Part shown: piece by piece, positions 9,811 to 20,300 of the stretch
Layout of the letters: each line of letters begins with the position of its first letter
Numbering within the stretch: the first letter of the stretch is position 1
From: a virus
Reading direction: 5' to 3' (one strand)
DNA length: 29,823 bases
IMG/VR virus record: IMGVR_UViG_3300025110_000082
Location: 1-29,823 of that record
Notes under the pieces: model-generated
Database searches by the model: none
What the model was told of the DNA's origin: nothing
Seen by the model: only the letters and a program-made list of their open reading frames with translations
Position numbers and translations under genes: made by a program

Positions 9811-12800
9811 ATGGCACAGATAATAAGTTATGGTGGTTATGGTGACTTAGAATTTAGTGACAAAGCTTCTGATGCACAAATTAAAGATTACGTCGACCGA
9901 AACTACAAAGCAATTGAGAATCGTTTTAATGTTCCCCACTCTGACCCTGCAGGGTTAGTCTCGCCTATACTTCCCGATGCTCTTGAACGTGGTGTTCTGA
10001 ATGCCAAGAAAGCTTTTAATGTTGTGCAATTTAATTTAGGGTTAAACACTTTAGATGATGCGCTCTACGACATTCGTCGTTATGATGAACGAGCTAAACA
10101 GATTCCCATGGATAAAAGGGATAAGGAAACCTTAACAAAGGTTGTCAAGTCTAAAAGTCTTGGAGGTGCTTTATCTGCTTTAGGTGAGAATCCAATGGTG
10201 ATTTTTCCAGTTCTTGGAGAATCGATTGGACAATACTTACCAACCATAGCCTTGGGTGCGGCTCCTCCTTTACTCTTAGCACGAGGTTTGGCTGGATCAT
10301 TACTTGCGGCGGGTGGTACAGGTTTAGGTAGTGGGTTAACGGAATATGGTGGATCCGTTATTGATGCTTTAGCAGAGGCTGGGGTTAATACAGACGATGG
10401 AATGGAAATGGCACAAGCCTTGGCTGATCCAGTTAAAATGAAAAAAGCAAAACAGTATGCATTAGATAGAGGAGTACCAATCGGTGTCTTTGATGCTGCT
10501 TCGTTTGGTATGGCTGGTATATTAACCAAAGCTATCAGAGATTCTGGTCGTAAAATATTAGGCAGTCAGTTAGCAACTACCCTTGGTGCCAGTGGTGCTG
10601 AGATTGCTCAAGCGGGTTCATTAGGAGCAATGGGAGAATATGTTGCACAGATATCAGCCGACGGTAGAGTAACATCGCCTGGATCTATACTTCTTGAAAC
10701 TATCGCCGAAGGCCCATTGGGAATTGTTGAGGCTGGTATTAATTTAAGAAATGAATATAAAGCCGAACCAGACATAAACCCAGAAGTTGATGACGGTCAA
10801 CCTATAACACAACCTAAAATTCTTAGCTTACCTTCCCCAACGAAAACATCTTCCCCAACGGAAACAGTTACGGTCTCAAAACAAAGATTAATATTAAATA
10901 ATCTTCAAGACCAATTAAAGAAAGCTAAAACAAAAAAGGAAAGGGGAAACATAACAAAGCAAATAACAGATGCGAAAAAATTATTCACACAACAAAGAGA
11001 AGCTACGTTAGATTTGATACGAGGAAAATTATCTTCTTATCTTATAACTGCATCAAAACAAAGTACTGCCGATGGGATCGGTAATGATTTAGTAGATCCT
11101 AAAAAAATAAGAGAGAAAGCTCTTACTCCTTATGAAAGACAATTCCTTATTGATATGGACGAGCGGTCTAAAAAAAAGTTTGAAAAAGATTTAGATAAAG
11201 ATCCGTTTGGAAAAACCAAAAAACAACTTACGGCAACGGAATTTGAAGCAGAGATATATAAAGATTTATTTGACAAACGGATTCTCAATGTTGAATCAAC
11301 AGTAAACGATAGGGGAGAAACTGTTGCTAATTATTTTACCTTTTCACCTTTTGATATTGAGTCTTTAAAAAAAGCCGAAGCTGAACAGGAAATAGAAAAT
11401 AAGAAGAAGCCTATAATACGTAAGTTAAAACCATCTAAACTAAAGTGGCCATTTAATTTTGAAAAATTAAAGCTTAAACTAGGAACAAGAACAGCAACGG
11501 TTGCAGGTATAACGGCTTCAAGTCCGACAGAGTTTAATTTAAAGTATAAAGAAAAGTATGGACGAAACCCTGATATACAGTCTGAGCTTATGGTGTTTAA
11601 TCGTAAACTTAATTCAACCCCACAATACATACTAGATGAACAGGCTGAAAGTTCTCAAATAGAACTGAGCCCAACACTAGATGTTACAAATAAAGGTTTG
11701 ATACAAGACTTAGCTAAGTCATTTAATTTATTTAAACGAAAAGCTAAAAGAGGTAAGTCATCAGCTTTTTTAGGAGAAGGAGAGTTTAGGGCTTTAGATA
11801 CTATTACTAAATTAACTAATGAAGATGAAAGATCTCCTGGACTTATACAATTTTTACGTGGCAGTCTGGCACAAAAGATAGGTCAACGAGTTCCTACAAA
11901 AATCATACAAGATCAAAACGGAGATGTACAAGGACAAGTTCAGAAACTTGCTTTAAGTGGTAGAAGTTTTTTAGATGTAGGCACGGGACAACCACGAGGG
12001 ATACCTGGTCCAGGGTCTGTGTTTGTTGCTGTTGATATAGGTAATCCAGATAATAACAGAATATTTATGACAGAAAAAGAAGCTGCGACTCATCTAGATA
12101 AATCATTAAAGAAAAGAAAAGTAAATATTAATAAAGTTAAAACTAATCTTGTACCAAACTTGCCTCAAGAAAACTTTTTAAAAAATATTAGAGACGAACT
12201 TAATAGAATAGCACAAGACAGGCCAGATATATTAAACCAAGCAAACGATGATTTTGTAGAAATGAATAATGATGAACAATTACGTATTATAGAATCAGAA
12301 TTTTTAGATGATGCAAAGTTAATTAAGATACAAGATCTTATTGCTAGAGGTAGAAAAGGAGATACAGTGTCTGGCTTTTCTAGAAACTTAGATCCTGATG
12401 CAGTTACATTAAATTTAACTGACGATGCAAGGGATACAAATCTTCTTCGAGCTGCTGGTGTGAGTATGCATACTGAAGTAAACAAAGCTGACTACGAAAT
12501 AGAACAGATTGATCAAGAGCCTACACCTACCTACACAGCAAAAGAAAAAAGGGAACAAGACGGCTTTATACGAAAAGCAATCGATACAATGAAATCATTT
12601 ATAGGAGACAAGTTTTTAAATTTATTAGTACCGTGGGTTAACAGTGCCTACCATCTTGCACAGAAGAGCAAACCAATTGCAAGGATAGTTAAAGTACTTG
12701 AACAAAGATCATCACTCCGTCAAAAAATACTAGAACAACTTCAAAGGATTGTCGGTGAAAAATTTAACAACCTAGACGATGCTCAAGTGGCTGAAGTATT

Positions 12801-15666
12801 TAAGGTGGCTATGTTTGCACGAGCAGCTCAATTACAAATCAATACAGATAGTGAGTTTAGAGTTTCAGATAATGAAATATATATTCCGCCTTCGGTATTA
12901 CAAAGTGATCGACTAGGTGTTGGAGGTAAACCCCTTAAAGATATTGTTATTCCTATGTTAAATGGAACGGTACCTCCAGAAGGTTTAAGATTAACTGGTG
13001 ATGAGGTTGTGGCTTATGATGCTCTACTTCAGATGGGTCAGTTTGAAAGAGACTTAATGGTTCAAGATACCTTAGAAGATTTAATGACTAATCTACAAGA
13101 TGTTGGTCTGGTTATAAATAGTGATACAACTAATCTTAAATCGGGTGCGGCTATTCAATCGTTAGTAGATACCCTAAAAGGAAAATATTTTGAAACAGAT
13201 GAAAACGGAAAAATAAAAAGGAATAAAGATAAGACTCCTATATTAAGTGTTGACTCAATATCAGAATTCGATGGAATAATTTTAGATAGAACTTTAAAAA
13301 GATTAGAAGCTATCGCAAAAAACTATGACTCTACCTATGTTCCACTAAGTCGAAACGGTGATAAGTTTGTTTCTGTAACGGAAAATACAATTGGAACCAA
13401 TCCGGATGGAGAACCAAAGGATGTGAAAAGAACTATATATTGGATGGCATTTGAGACACAGACTGGGAAAAATATATTTGAAATGAATAAAGCAAAAACT
13501 TTAGATAGAGAACTTAAAGAAAGATTTTCACCAAAAGAAACAATTGTTAATGCAGACGGTAAACGAATTCCAAGATATGTTTTTAGTGGAGTCCGAAATA
13601 ATACATACGATTCAATGAAAGAATTTTTACCAAATGATTTTGCTAGTTCATTAGATACATTCTTACAACTTATGCCTACGGACAGTATACCAGGTAGAGA
13701 AGAACTTTTACAGAAGGCTAATCAGTTAGAGGGAGCAAAGTTATTACCTTCATTTCTTTCACAATCGTATATGATACCAGGCTTTGATTTTGAAAATTCC
13801 AGAGAAGCTCTTGGTAGACATATTAACTCCTTTGCTACTTGGAACGCAGGTTTTAAATTTGACAGTCGTTTAAAAAAAGTATTGACCGAGGGAGATTTCA
13901 ATGAGATGGAGGCTAAGTACCGAGATGAATTAGTTAATTACTTAAACCGAGATCCATATGAGTGGCAGCAGTTTAGACAGATTGCTTTTATGTATTATCT
14001 AACAGACATTAGTGCTTCTGTTATGAACCTTTTCCAAAGCATACCGGCTGGTGTACATATTGGTGCTTATAGTGGAATGAGGAAAGCCGCTAAAGGACAG
14101 GTAAAAACAATGGCTAATCTTCGTAAAGCTTTAAAACCAAATTTAAAAACAGATAACCAATTTGATTATGAAAAACTTAAAAAAATGTATGGCTCAACCA
14201 TTCCATTGTTTAATGATCCCGATCAATTGATTGGAACCGTCGTAGCACCAAGTCGTGCTAACGAATACTTAGCTAATGAAACTAGTGGTCTAATGAGAAA
14301 CACTCGGAATGTTTTAGGAACTAAAGGTTTTTCAAATAAGATAGAAAAGTCTACTAGACTTACAGGATTATTATTTACAACAACAGAGGCAGCAAACAGA
14401 TTATCAACATACATTAATAGCTTTGAGCAGACAGCCGACTTTGATACATTAAGAAGAGGAATAGAATGGAATCTAGAATCAAAACTATTCCAAGATAAAC
14501 TTCGTACGGATTATAATTTAGATCCAGACACTATCTTAAATAACTTTGAACAATTCAGAAACGATAAAGATATGAGGAATAGATTAGGTCATCTAATTGC
14601 CGAGACCGCTGTTGCTGAAACACAGTTTATGTATGGTCGTCATGTTAAACCAAGAATTAGTAGAGGAGCAGGTGCTGTGTTCTTCCAGTTTACTGAGTAT
14701 CCAACTATGATGTTAGAATTTTTAAAGAGATTATATGATAGACCAGGTGGTAAGAAAGCTTTTGCCACATATGTAGGGGCTTTACTGTTAACATCTGGTT
14801 TTATGGGTCTTCCTTTTGTAACAGACTTATCAGAAATTTATGAGTTGATCACTAAGAAGAATGCTAAAAAAGAATTATACGAAGTTTTAGGCGAAGCTAC
14901 AAATCCAAAGATAGCCGAGGCTTTAATGCTTGGTTTATCTCGGTCACTTACTGGAACATCTATAGGTCCGAGAGTTGGTCTGGGTACCCATCCTATCACT
15001 GGTGCGGCTATCGATTTGTTTGGTGGTCATGGGGGTGCAACTCGTTTAAATATTCCTATTGCTGGTGTGGTACGACAACTCAAGGATGCAAGGTCCTATG
15101 CTCAAGAAGATGACTATGCTCTTGCTATTGCTTCCGCTCTCCCAAAGGTTTTAGGTGCACCTATTAAAGCAATATATCAAGGAAGAGATGGAATAAGAAC
15201 AAGGTCTGGTGAGAAGGTTATGTTACCAGAAAATGTAGATACTTGGGATCAGGTTGTTGGTGCTCTTGGTTTCACTTCCGCAGATATTGCTAGAGAACGT
15301 GAGGCTATCTGGATGGCTAAGAGTTTAAAGAATGCCAGTGCTCCAATTCAAAGAAGATTTATGAGAAGAATTCAAAAACACCAAGGGGCACTGGCTAGAG
15401 CAATAAAAGATAATGATGAAGAAAAAATAAAGAATGCTAGAGCTAGATTGTCAGATGTTTACTTTGATATTCAAGAATACAATAGGGAGGCTATAGACGA
15501 GGGCGAATCATATCGTGTAATAAGACCAAATAAATCAACGGTACAAGGCAATTTGCGAAACGAACTCATGGGTATCCCAGAAACTGTATCTACCTTACCA
15601 AAAATAACAAGACCAGAGGCACAGAGAGTACTAAGAATAGTTCCTCGTGGTATTGACAATCCTTAA
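9811..15666 (+). CDS. Giant internal core / ejection protein (gp16-like, large polyvalent-protein type)
   Basis: At 1951 residues this is the largest gene. The N-terminus (YGDLEFSDKASDAQIKDYVD) matches the short strand-helix motif that opens many phage core proteins. Residues ~115-270 are Gly/Ala-rich and hydrophobic with blocks such as GLTEYGGSVIDALAEAGV and DRGVPIGVFDAASFGMAG, characteristic of large polyvalent phage proteins. The middle is Lys/Glu-rich and helical. Near the C-terminus a block (ISRGAGAVFFQFTEYPTMML, then AFATYVGALLLTSGFMG) could be membrane-inserting, and the last ~130 residues resemble the PLxRFG-type tail region. I see no lytic transglycosylase motif at the N-terminus, unlike T7 gp16. 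The likely role is a DNA-ejection conduit. A short tandem DNA repeat sits in its linker at 10832-10867. Confidence 0.7.
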   Translation: MAQIISYGGYGDLEFSDKASDAQIKDYVDRNYKAIENRFNVPHSDPAGLVSPILPDALERGVLNAKKAFNVVQFNLGLNTLDDALYDIRRYDERAKQIPMDKRDKETLTKVVKSKSLGGALSALGENPMVIFPVLGESIGQYLPTIALGAAPPLLLARGLAGSLLAAGGTGLGSGLTEYGGSVIDALAEAGVNTDDGMEMAQALADPVKMKKAKQYALDRGVPIGVFDAASFGMAGILTKAIRDSGRKILGSQLATTLGASGAEIAQAGSLGAMGEYVAQISADGRVTSPGSILLETIAEGPLGIVEAGINLRNEYKAEPDINPEVDDGQPITQPKILSLPSPTKTSSPTETVTVSKQRLILNNLQDQLKKAKTKKERGNITKQITDAKKLFTQQREATLDLIRGKLSSYLITASKQSTADGIGNDLVDPKKIREKALTPYERQFLIDMDERSKKKFEKDLDKDPFGKTKKQLTATEFEAEIYKDLFDKRILNVESTVNDRGETVANYFTFSPFDIESLKKAEAEQEIENKKKPIIRKLKPSKLKWPFNFEKLKLKLGTRTATVAGITASSPTEFNLKYKEKYGRNPDIQSELMVFNRKLNSTPQYILDEQAESSQIELSPTLDVTNKGLIQDLAKSFNLFKRKAKRGKSSAFLGEGEFRALDTITKLTNEDERSPGLIQFLRGSLAQKIGQRVPTKIIQDQNGDVQGQVQKLALSGRSFLDVGTGQPRGIPGPGSVFVAVDIGNPDNNRIFMTEKEAATHLDKSLKKRKVNINKVKTNLVPNLPQENFLKNIRDELNRIAQDRPDILNQANDDFVEMNNDEQLRIIESEFLDDAKLIKIQDLIARGRKGDTVSGFSRNLDPDAVTLNLTDDARDTNLLRAAGVSMHTEVNKADYEIEQIDQEPTPTYTAKEKREQDGFIRKAIDTMKSFIGDKFLNLLVPWVNSAYHLAQKSKPIARIVKVLEQRSSLRQKILEQLQRIVGEKFNNLDDAQVAEVFKVAMFARAAQLQINTDSEFRVSDNEIYIPPSVLQSDRLGVGGKPLKDIVIPMLNGTVPPEGLRLTGDEVVAYDALLQMGQFERDLMVQDTLEDLMTNLQDVGLVINSDTTNLKSGAAIQSLVDTLKGKYFETDENGKIKRNKDKTPILSVDSISEFDGIILDRTLKRLEAIAKNYDSTYVPLSRNGDKFVSVTENTIGTNPDGEPKDVKRTIYWMAFETQTGKNIFEMNKAKTLDRELKERFSPKETIVNADGKRIPRYVFSGVRNNTYDSMKEFLPNDFASSLDTFLQLMPTDSIPGREELLQKANQLEGAKLLPSFLSQSYMIPGFDFENSREALGRHINSFATWNAGFKFDSRLKKVLTEGDFNEMEAKYRDELVNYLNRDPYEWQQFRQIAFMYYLTDISASVMNLFQSIPAGVHIGAYSGMRKAAKGQVKTMANLRKALKPNLKTDNQFDYEKLKKMYGSTIPLFNDPDQLIGTVVAPSRANEYLANETSGLMRNTRNVLGTKGFSNKIEKSTRLTGLLFTTTEAANRLSTYINSFEQTADFDTLRRGIEWNLESKLFQDKLRTDYNLDPDTILNNFEQFRNDKDMRNRLGHLIAETAVAETQFMYGRHVKPRISRGAGAVFFQFTEYPTMMLEFLKRLYDRPGGKKAFATYVGALLLTSGFMGLPFVTDLSEIYELITKKNAKKELYEVLGEATNPKIAEALMLGLSRSLTGTSIGPRVGLGTHPITGAAIDLFGGHGGATRLNIPIAGVVRQLKDARSYAQEDDYALAIASALPKVLGAPIKAIYQGRDGIRTRSGEKVMLPENVDTWDQVVGALGFTSADIAREREAIWMAKSLKNASAPIQRRFMRRIQKHQGALARAIKDNDEEKIKNARARLSDVYFDIQEYNREAIDEGESYRVIRPNKSTVQGNLRNELMGIPETVSTLPKITRPEAQRVLRIVPRGIDNP
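10832..10867 (+). repeat. 18-base tandem repeat in the linker of the giant core protein
   Basis: Two adjacent 18-base units, each beginning CTTCCCCAACG, differ at two positions. They encode a Ser-Pro-Thr-x-Thr type linker (SPTKTSSPTETV) between the hydrophobic N-terminal region and the helical middle of the protein. Confidence 0.7.
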
Positions 15667-18978: not shown

Positions 18979-19294
18979 CGATAAAGACAAACAAAAAGAT
19001 GTTGTTGTAAATTTATTTAAAGATAAAAGAGAAAAGGTTATGACAACTGCTGCGGCTAAGTCATTTCCACCTGAACATTTTAATAAATTAGTATTAGAAA
19101 ATATAGAGACAACTAAGAAAGATGCCGAAGATTTTAAAGCGACAGGAATCATCAGTATCATTATGGATGATCAAGGTCCTATTGCTGATTACTTTGCTGG
19201 TAGTATAAATTTAAACTCGGCTTATGTTTTGATGGACCAACTAAAGAATGTTATATTAGATAAGATAGAACAATCTCAAGAAGGAAAAGAATAA
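18971..19294 (+). CDS. Conserved-type small protein, unknown function
   Basis: I do not recognise this 107-residue protein. It is charged, with a Lys/Asp-rich start (MTDDKDKQKDVVVNLF), a helical middle and a C-terminal helix (LNSAYVLMDQLKNVILDKIE). No membrane segment or signal peptide is visible. The start overlaps the last codons of the transferase upstream and the stop overlaps the holin start (TAATG), so it is co-translated with the lysis gene and may be a late or lysis-linked factor. Confidence 0.6.
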   Translation: MTDDKDKQKDVVVNLFKDKREKVMTTAAAKSFPPEHFNKLVLENIETTKKDAEDFKATGIISIIMDDQGPIADYFAGSINLNSAYVLMDQLKNVILDKIEQSQEGKE

Positions 19295-19704
19295 TGTTAA
19301 CAGCACTTATTGGTCCAGTCACAGGTTTACTGGATAAGTTTATAGAAGATAAAGATCAGAAGAATAGATTAGCTCACGACATTGCAACAATGTCTGAGAA
19401 GCATGCGAATGCTTTGGCTAAAGAACAAGCTAAAGCTAACACCGAAGCAGCTAAACATCCAAGTATGTTTGTAGCTGGGGCAAGACCTGCAATTATGTGG
19501 GTATGTGCGATCGGTTTGTTTGTAAACTTTTTTATACTACCACTAATGACTTGGTTCACAGCCTTGTTTGCCCCAGAAATAAGTATGCCAAACTTTATAG
19601 ACACTGGTGAACTTATCTCTCTAACAATAGCCTTACTCGGAATGGGTGGCTTACGTTCTTTTGAAAAATCAAAAGGGGTTGCAAGAGAGAATATGAAGAA
19701 GTAA
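19294..19704 (+). CDS. Holin, GTA/3TM family
   Basis: This 136-residue protein has a soluble, Ala/Lys-rich N-terminal helix (residues ~1-57), the segment AGARPAIMWV and a long hydrophobic stretch (~65-93, IMWVCAIGLFVNFFILPLMT). A second hydrophobic stretch follows (~105-120, LISLTIALLGMGGL), then a basic tail. This is the layout of the 'holin of 3TMs, gene transfer agent release' family. It would form the inner-membrane lesion that releases endolysin. No endolysin gene is visible in the window. Start and upstream stop overlap (TAATG). Confidence 0.8.
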   Translation: MLTALIGPVTGLLDKFIEDKDQKNRLAHDIATMSEKHANALAKEQAKANTEAAKHPSMFVAGARPAIMWVCAIGLFVNFFILPLMTWFTALFAPEISMPNFIDTGELISLTIALLGMGGLRSFEKSKGVARENMKK

Positions 19705-19770: not shown

Positions 19771-19781
19771 TGGAGTTGACT

Positions 19782-19856
19782 ATGTGGTCTAAACCTATTA
19801 TCACAGAAATAGCAGTCGGTCTTGAGATCAACAGCTATGCTTGTGCTGAAAAGTAA
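19782..19856 (+). CDS. pqqA: PqqA-like peptide: precursor of pyrroloquinoline quinone
   Basis: A 24-codon gene with a GGAG Shine-Dalgarno 6 bases before its ATG. The peptide starts MWSKPIITEI and contains GLEINSYACAE. In PqqA the conserved Glu and Tyr, which PqqE crosslinks to make the PQQ skeleton, are separated by three residues (ExxxY). Here they are E15 and Y19, the same numbers as in the Klebsiella-type peptide. The Trp near the start, the Lys-Pro, the GxE before the crosslink site and the SYxxAE end resemble alphaproteobacterial PqqA. No pqqB, C, D or E gene is visible here, so it would depend on host enzymes. It lies between the holin gene and other tiny genes, and a GC-rich hairpin follows its stop. 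The match is by motif only; a 24-residue peptide leaves room for coincidence. Confidence 0.75.
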   Translation: MWSKPIITEIAVGLEINSYACAEK

Positions 19857-19896: not shown

Positions 19897-20019
19897 ATGT
19901 TATTAACTAAAAACTTTTTAAGATTTAAAAGAGATTTTATAATTAAAATTCCTAATCAAACTGGTAGAGTTTGGGATCTAGCTGAGAACAGATGGGGTTA
20001 TCGAAGAGCACACTCCTAG
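19897..20019 (+). CDS. Small basic protein, 40 residues, unknown
   Basis: I choose the ATG at 19897 because GGAGG lies 4 bases upstream (19888-19892). Longer in-frame starts (19822, 19861) would overprint the pqqA-like gene or the hairpin and have no ribosome site. The peptide starts MLLTKNFLRFKRDFIIK and contains NQTGRVWDLAENRWGYRR; it is basic with no membrane segment of normal length. It overlaps the next gene by 28 bases, suggesting coupled translation. I recognise no family. Confidence 0.5.
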   Translation: MLLTKNFLRFKRDFIIKIPNQTGRVWDLAENRWGYRRAHS

Positions 20020-20300
20020 TTCTTACCATTCTAATACCAACAGTGGTAAACAGTTGGAGTTATAAGTGGACTGGAAAAGGAAAGCTTTATGACCAACGGA
20101 ATCAGTACCATGTTACCTGTAGATTAACTAAAGAAAAAAGAGTTGAACCTTTTCTTGGAGAAGATTCAGTCAAATGCTTTTATACCTGTTCCGATAAAGA
20201 TAAAATGGTTGTAAATACACACAGTGATTTTGCATGTGAGAAACAAATACAAGCACCAAGGGGAGATCAAAGAAGTTGGAGGGACCGATTAAAATATTAA
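19992..20300 (+). CDS. Small secreted four-cysteine protein, unknown
   Basis: A 102-residue protein with a likely signal peptide: MGLSKS, then a hydrophobic core (TLLVLTILIPTVV) and a possible cleavage site after VNS near residue 21. The mature part (~80 residues) has four cysteines (C43, C62, C66, C82), enough for two disulfides, and many charged residues. It would act in the periplasm. It follows the holin and the pqqA-like gene in the same direction. It has no lipobox, so an Rz1-type spanin lipoprotein is unlikely; an exclusion factor, lysis factor or periplasmic binding protein are all possible. Confidence 0.55.
   Translation: MGLSKSTLLVLTILIPTVVNSWSYKWTGKGKLYDQRNQYHVTCRLTKEKRVEPFLGEDSVKCFYTCSDKDKMVVNTHSDFACEKQIQAPRGDQRSWRDRLKY

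Follow-up and report, generated by a model that had tools for sequence, protein, structure and literature searches.

A stand-alone pqqA gene in a podovirus-like marine phage probably supplies PQQ precursor to its host

A 24-codon phage gene encodes PqqA

The window, i.e. the whole stretch of DNA analysed (29,823 nucleotides, a 29.8 kb viral fragment deposited as IMG/VR record IMGVR_UViG_3300025110_000082), carries a bona fide stand-alone pqqA, the gene for the peptide precursor of PQQ. This gene probably supplies the phage's host with additional precursor, raising PQQ during infection of what is likely a HIMB59 alphaproteobacterium and sustaining its PQQ alcohol dehydrogenase and respiration.

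The peptide, MWSKPIITEIAVGLEINSYACAEK, scored above the curated cut-offs of two profiles, namely Pfam PqqA (PF08042; 33.8 bits, E 3e-8, cut-off 21.1) and the NCBIfam equivalog TIGR02107 (36.8 bits, E 2e-9, cut-off 20), and it contains the Glu-X-X-X-Tyr core described for PqqA (PMC2294125). A profile built in this study gave it 60 bits, a score to be read knowing that the peptide belongs to the seed, while with the same profile none of the 69,253 fragments taken from Markov-shuffled windows exceeded 10.9 bits. The first-pass annotation, made from the letters alone, had proposed an orphan PqqA-like peptide with the Glu–Tyr pair at residues 15 and 19 and a good ribosome site, all of which held (Table 1). 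A motif resembling a ribosome-binding site precedes 67 of 67 viral pqqA copies located through their neighbouring genes. The window's own record holds a single PqqA copy; an Rfam search of the window returned no match, and promoter-like sites were in no excess over shuffled sequence.

Table 1. Features of the pqqA locus in the window
Feature	Coordinates	Strand	Evidence
Holin (GTA_holin_3TM / phrog_3427), constantly found 5' of pqqA within the window's family	19294..19704	+	Profile matches
GGAG ribosome-binding site, 6 nt 5' of the ATG	19772..19775	+	Sequence
pqqA, 24-aa PQQ precursor peptide MWSKPIITEIAVGLEINSYACAEK (E15, Y19)	19782..19856	+	PqqA profiles, sequence, conservation in relatives
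40-aa ORF, MLLTKNFLRFKRDF...	19897..20019	+	Sequence
Small protein with a hydrophobic N-terminus (probably a signal peptide) and four invariant Cys; accompanies the pqqA slot (companion protein)	19992..20300	+	Homologue comparison

Genomic context

The window phage is a podovirus-like marine phage encoding a family A DNA polymerase, a ribonucleotide reductase (RNR), a DnaB/Toprim helicase-primase, endonuclease I and a virion stabilization-like protein. Its polymerase is nearest to those of pelagiphages HTVC103P, HTVC104P and HTVC115P (41–44%). A 1951-aa ORF at 9811–15666 had no Pfam match.

No pqqB, pqqC, pqqD or pqqE was seen among the scanned window ORFs, and PqqD was found neither in the window nor in 11 related viral records. 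The gene stands outside the usual operon with pqqBCDE, an arrangement that is typical of PqqA without defining it. Since PqqD is absent from the phage record and the window showed no further pqq gene, the phage's pqqA would depend on the host pathway. The PQQ-dependent enzyme domain PF01011 was absent from 20 of 20 tested viral records with a window-like pqqA, a point against the proposed supply role.

The gene lies on the same strand as the structural genes and, in several other phages, other holin-like proteins occupy the holin's place beside it. A relative of the downstream 40-aa ORF is found between the holin and the companion gene in three loci without pqqA (L294, L296 and L299). The companion protein is 60–83% identical to counterparts in other marine phages and has distant relatives in HIMB59-order genomes; its predicted structure is of low confidence (pLDDT 62).

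Conservation and selection

Relatives of the locus were gathered via neighbouring genes (the companion protein, RNR and the holin) rather than via the peptide, and then scanned with the PqqA profile. This matters because the degenerate DNA pattern used to search viral contigs itself fixes E15, Y19, W, K, P and G, hence conservation was judged on the neighbour-fetched loci. These gave 67 places with pqqA, several of them on overlapping fragments of one contig, which correspond to 22 distinct DNA sequences. Across these 22, E15, Y19 and the tail GLEINSYACAEK were invariant. Neither a frameshift nor a diverged Glu or Tyr, which the first-pass annotation had named as evidence against a functional PqqA, was seen among these relatives. 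In three loci (L337, L338 and L341) the leader has drifted to WSKPSITVVS, with the core and GLEINSYACAEK unchanged.

Viral pqqA is under purifying selection, with a pN/pS of 0.155 in the window-like, or alpha, type (38 DNA variants) and 0.187 in a second, beta, type (92 DNA variants), both sets including pattern-selected loci. Residues 20–22 (ACA), which lie outside the search pattern, were fixed across the 38 alpha variants. The gene is kept in 10 of 10 RNR relatives (≥83% identity) whose sequence spans the slot; none was found in the available sequence of 15 more distant RNR relatives (about 60%). Six loci have the same neighbours and no pqqA (L240, L241, L294, L296, L299 and L386), which indicates that the gene is dispensable and comes and goes as a cassette.

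Probable host

The nearest bacterial peptides end in NSYACAEK and come from marine alphaproteobacteria, one of them from HIMB59-MED-G10. All 15 tested genomes with this ending fall in one order, as opposed to none of five with other endings, and from the title of the HIMB59-MED-G10 record we infer this order to be HIMB59 (AEGEAN-169). The PqqA of this order shares the identical 12-residue tail GLEINSYACAEK with the window peptide and matches it at 19–20 of 23 residues; the bacterial gene, however, lies 5' of pqqBCDE or at scattered chromosomal sites, whereas the phage copy follows a holin.

The companion protein points in the same direction. Its family was found in 7 of 32 HIMB59-order genomes versus 2 of 289 genomes class-wide (one of them a member of the order), by a profile that included HIMB59-order members and so favours matches there, the first matches having come from phage sequence alone. 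On the indirect evidence of the PqqA C-terminus and the companion protein, the most likely host would be a HIMB59 (AEGEAN-169) alphaproteobacterium. Against this assignment, no polymerase like the window's was detected in the 32 HIMB59-order genomes.

Such a host would probably be able to make and use PQQ, in line with the first-pass expectation of a PQQ-making host. Among the 32 genomes, PqqA was present in 31, with 79 copies in all and two or more in 25 genomes; a full or partial PqqE was present in 22, and 21 carried a PQQ alcohol dehydrogenase gene, located no more than a few kb from pqqE. The rest of the PQQ pathway is likewise found in most genomes of this putative host order. Certain papers on HIMB59 do not mention PQQ. 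Some genomes of the order (e.g., G021 and G033) have a single pqqE alongside as many as five pqqA copies dispersed over the genome, mostly outside the pqq operon.

Distribution among viruses

A single degenerate pattern retrieved at least 120 IMG/VR stretches, a lower bound in which some contigs are represented by more than one overlapping piece; each stretch had an open PqqA ORF. The matches listed split into the alpha and beta types. Two contigs binned as bacterial, in a Flavobacteriaceae bin (L172) and a Maricaulis bin (L125), are probably misbinned phage contigs: the former matches the window's replication genes, and the latter matches the companion gene and is arranged like other phage loci. 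A further candidate, Acinetobacter "phage" MD-2021a (CAKLQF020000010.1, L486), was rejected because it looks like bacterial host DNA: its match is followed by pqqBCD and a radical-SAM gene, and the contig holds ppk in addition to this bacterial pqq operon.

Beta-type pqqA was identified in the deposited Methylophilales phages Venkman, MEP301, MEP401, MEP402 and Melnitz (four records), as well as in LD28 phage P19250A and one metagenomic phage. The OM43 isolates preceding MEP401 and MEP402 are Venkman, MEP301 and Melnitz (PMC10580990), so that all OM43 isolates named in that paper carry pqqA. The gene is present in every isolated OM43/LD28 phage found, and these phages belong to several unrelated groups. 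These phages, whose hosts are methylotrophs, resemble the window phage in encoding a stand-alone pqqA that is not annotated as such, although they differ in a beta-type peptide identical at about 8 of 23 residues, and in phage group and genome position. The annotations of the five examined closely (Venkman, P19250A, MEP301, MEP402 and Melnitz) list no pqqA CDS, which agrees with the first-pass remark that gene callers miss genes this short; a hypothetical ORF on the opposite strand overlaps the gene in Melnitz. The papers describing Melnitz (PMC9004378) and MEP401/MEP402 (PMC10580990) do not mention the gene. Alpha-type queries gave no match in 50,697 phage records, among which an isolate infecting the putative HIMB59 host seems to be absent.

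Phage PqqA is not unprecedented, and the window phage is by no means the only one to encode it. Lake Baikal VP_266 encodes a PqqA proposed as an auxiliary metabolic gene (PMC7678222), and pqqA has been listed among reservoir viral genes (PMC13188868). VP_266, however, is T4-like, infects Methylophilaceae and encodes a methanol dehydrogenase as well (PMC7678222), whereas the window phage is podovirus-like, with an alpha-type PqqA, a different putative host and no PQQ enzyme seen. As a host-type metabolic gene kept in phage genomes, pqqA corresponds in this respect to an auxiliary metabolic gene. On another T4-like contig (L009:4417-8745, with a gp59 loader), pqqA sits in a dense auxiliary-gene cluster amid soxYZ fusion, iscA-like, iscU-like, cell-wall hydrolase, cupin and redoxin genes. 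Several Fe-S clusters are essential to PqqE.

Proposed role and alternative explanations

In PQQ synthesis, PqqE and its chaperone PqqD join the Glu and Tyr of PqqA, after which a protease, PqqB and PqqC act (PMC10906245). Since PqqA is itself crosslinked and processed into PQQ, one peptide is spent per PQQ, and the peptide alone (75 bp) would be the cheapest way to more PQQ. Supply of this consumed substrate is the simplest reading. In one host, PqqA reportedly exceeds PqqC or PqqE about 20-fold in abundance (PMC2294125), and raised pqqAB in Acetobacter pasteurianus increased PQQ by 29%, pqqB having been raised along with pqqA (PMC7936290). In the infected cell, the phage would make PqqA, host PqqD would bind its leader, host PqqE would crosslink E15 to Y19, and the host's protease together with its PqqB and PqqC would complete PQQ. 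The extra cofactor may then keep the periplasmic PQQ alcohol dehydrogenase, and hence host respiration, going to the benefit of the phage. The multiple scattered pqqA copies in HIMB59-order genomes suggest that these hosts use the same trick.

The first-pass annotation had offered two readings, precursor supply or a decoy, and it is the former that fits better. As a decoy, phage PqqA would occupy PqqD or PqqE, or become a dead-end product, and so block or redirect PQQ-dependent respiration. A binding surface would be conserved likewise, no other pqq gene accompanies the peptide, and the leader can drift while the core stays; a decoy, however, need not retain both crosslinked residues and the whole tail, and all of these are invariant in the protein despite varied codons. 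In addition, extra PqqA is evidently tolerated, given the several additional pqqA copies in host genomes, and phages usually profit from a sustained host energy supply. We therefore prefer precursor supply, because the crosslinking core is kept whole, pN/pS is low and the peptide matches host PqqA at 19–20 of 23 residues, and regard a decoy or diverter as quite unlikely.

Precursor supply could also serve ends other than respiration, such as redox protection of infected cells or release of PQQ at lysis. The latter would suit a place beside the holin, which pqqA follows in several alpha-type phages, and the soxYZ, iscA-like, iscU-like and redoxin genes around pqqA on the T4-like contig would suit a redox role. 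Yet the annotated neighbourhoods of pqqA in the OM43 phages show no holin linkage, and the known role of PQQ is that of a dehydrogenase cofactor, so that a non-respiratory use appears unlikely. That pqqA is a recently captured, non-functional host fragment without effect might be suspected from its very short length and from the relatives of the locus that do without it, but purifying selection, a ribosome-binding site kept everywhere and recurrence in many unrelated phages strongly contradict such a passenger, which we consider highly improbable.

Supply of precursor may extend well beyond the window phage. We lean towards viewing stand-alone pqqA as a convergent and widespread phage strategy towards PQQ-dependent aquatic bacteria, adopted independently in unrelated phages that infect two or more host groups (OM43/LD28 methylotrophs and HIMB59-like alphaproteobacteria) and nearly always unannotated, because PqqA supply would limit PQQ in streamlined cells.

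Biological significance

Phages are known to bring in enzymes that enhance the metabolism of their hosts. To encode just the peptide substrate of a cofactor pathway represents a different and very cheap solution, invisible to standard annotation, and given stand-alone pqqA in many unrelated phages, feeding PQQ synthesis in the host looks like a strategy that phages commonly use. Two questions are now directly testable, namely whether streamlined ocean bacteria are limited in PQQ by their supply of PqqA, and whether the oxidation of methanol and alcohols in the sea is steered by phages; the isolated OM43 phages provide cultivable systems for both.
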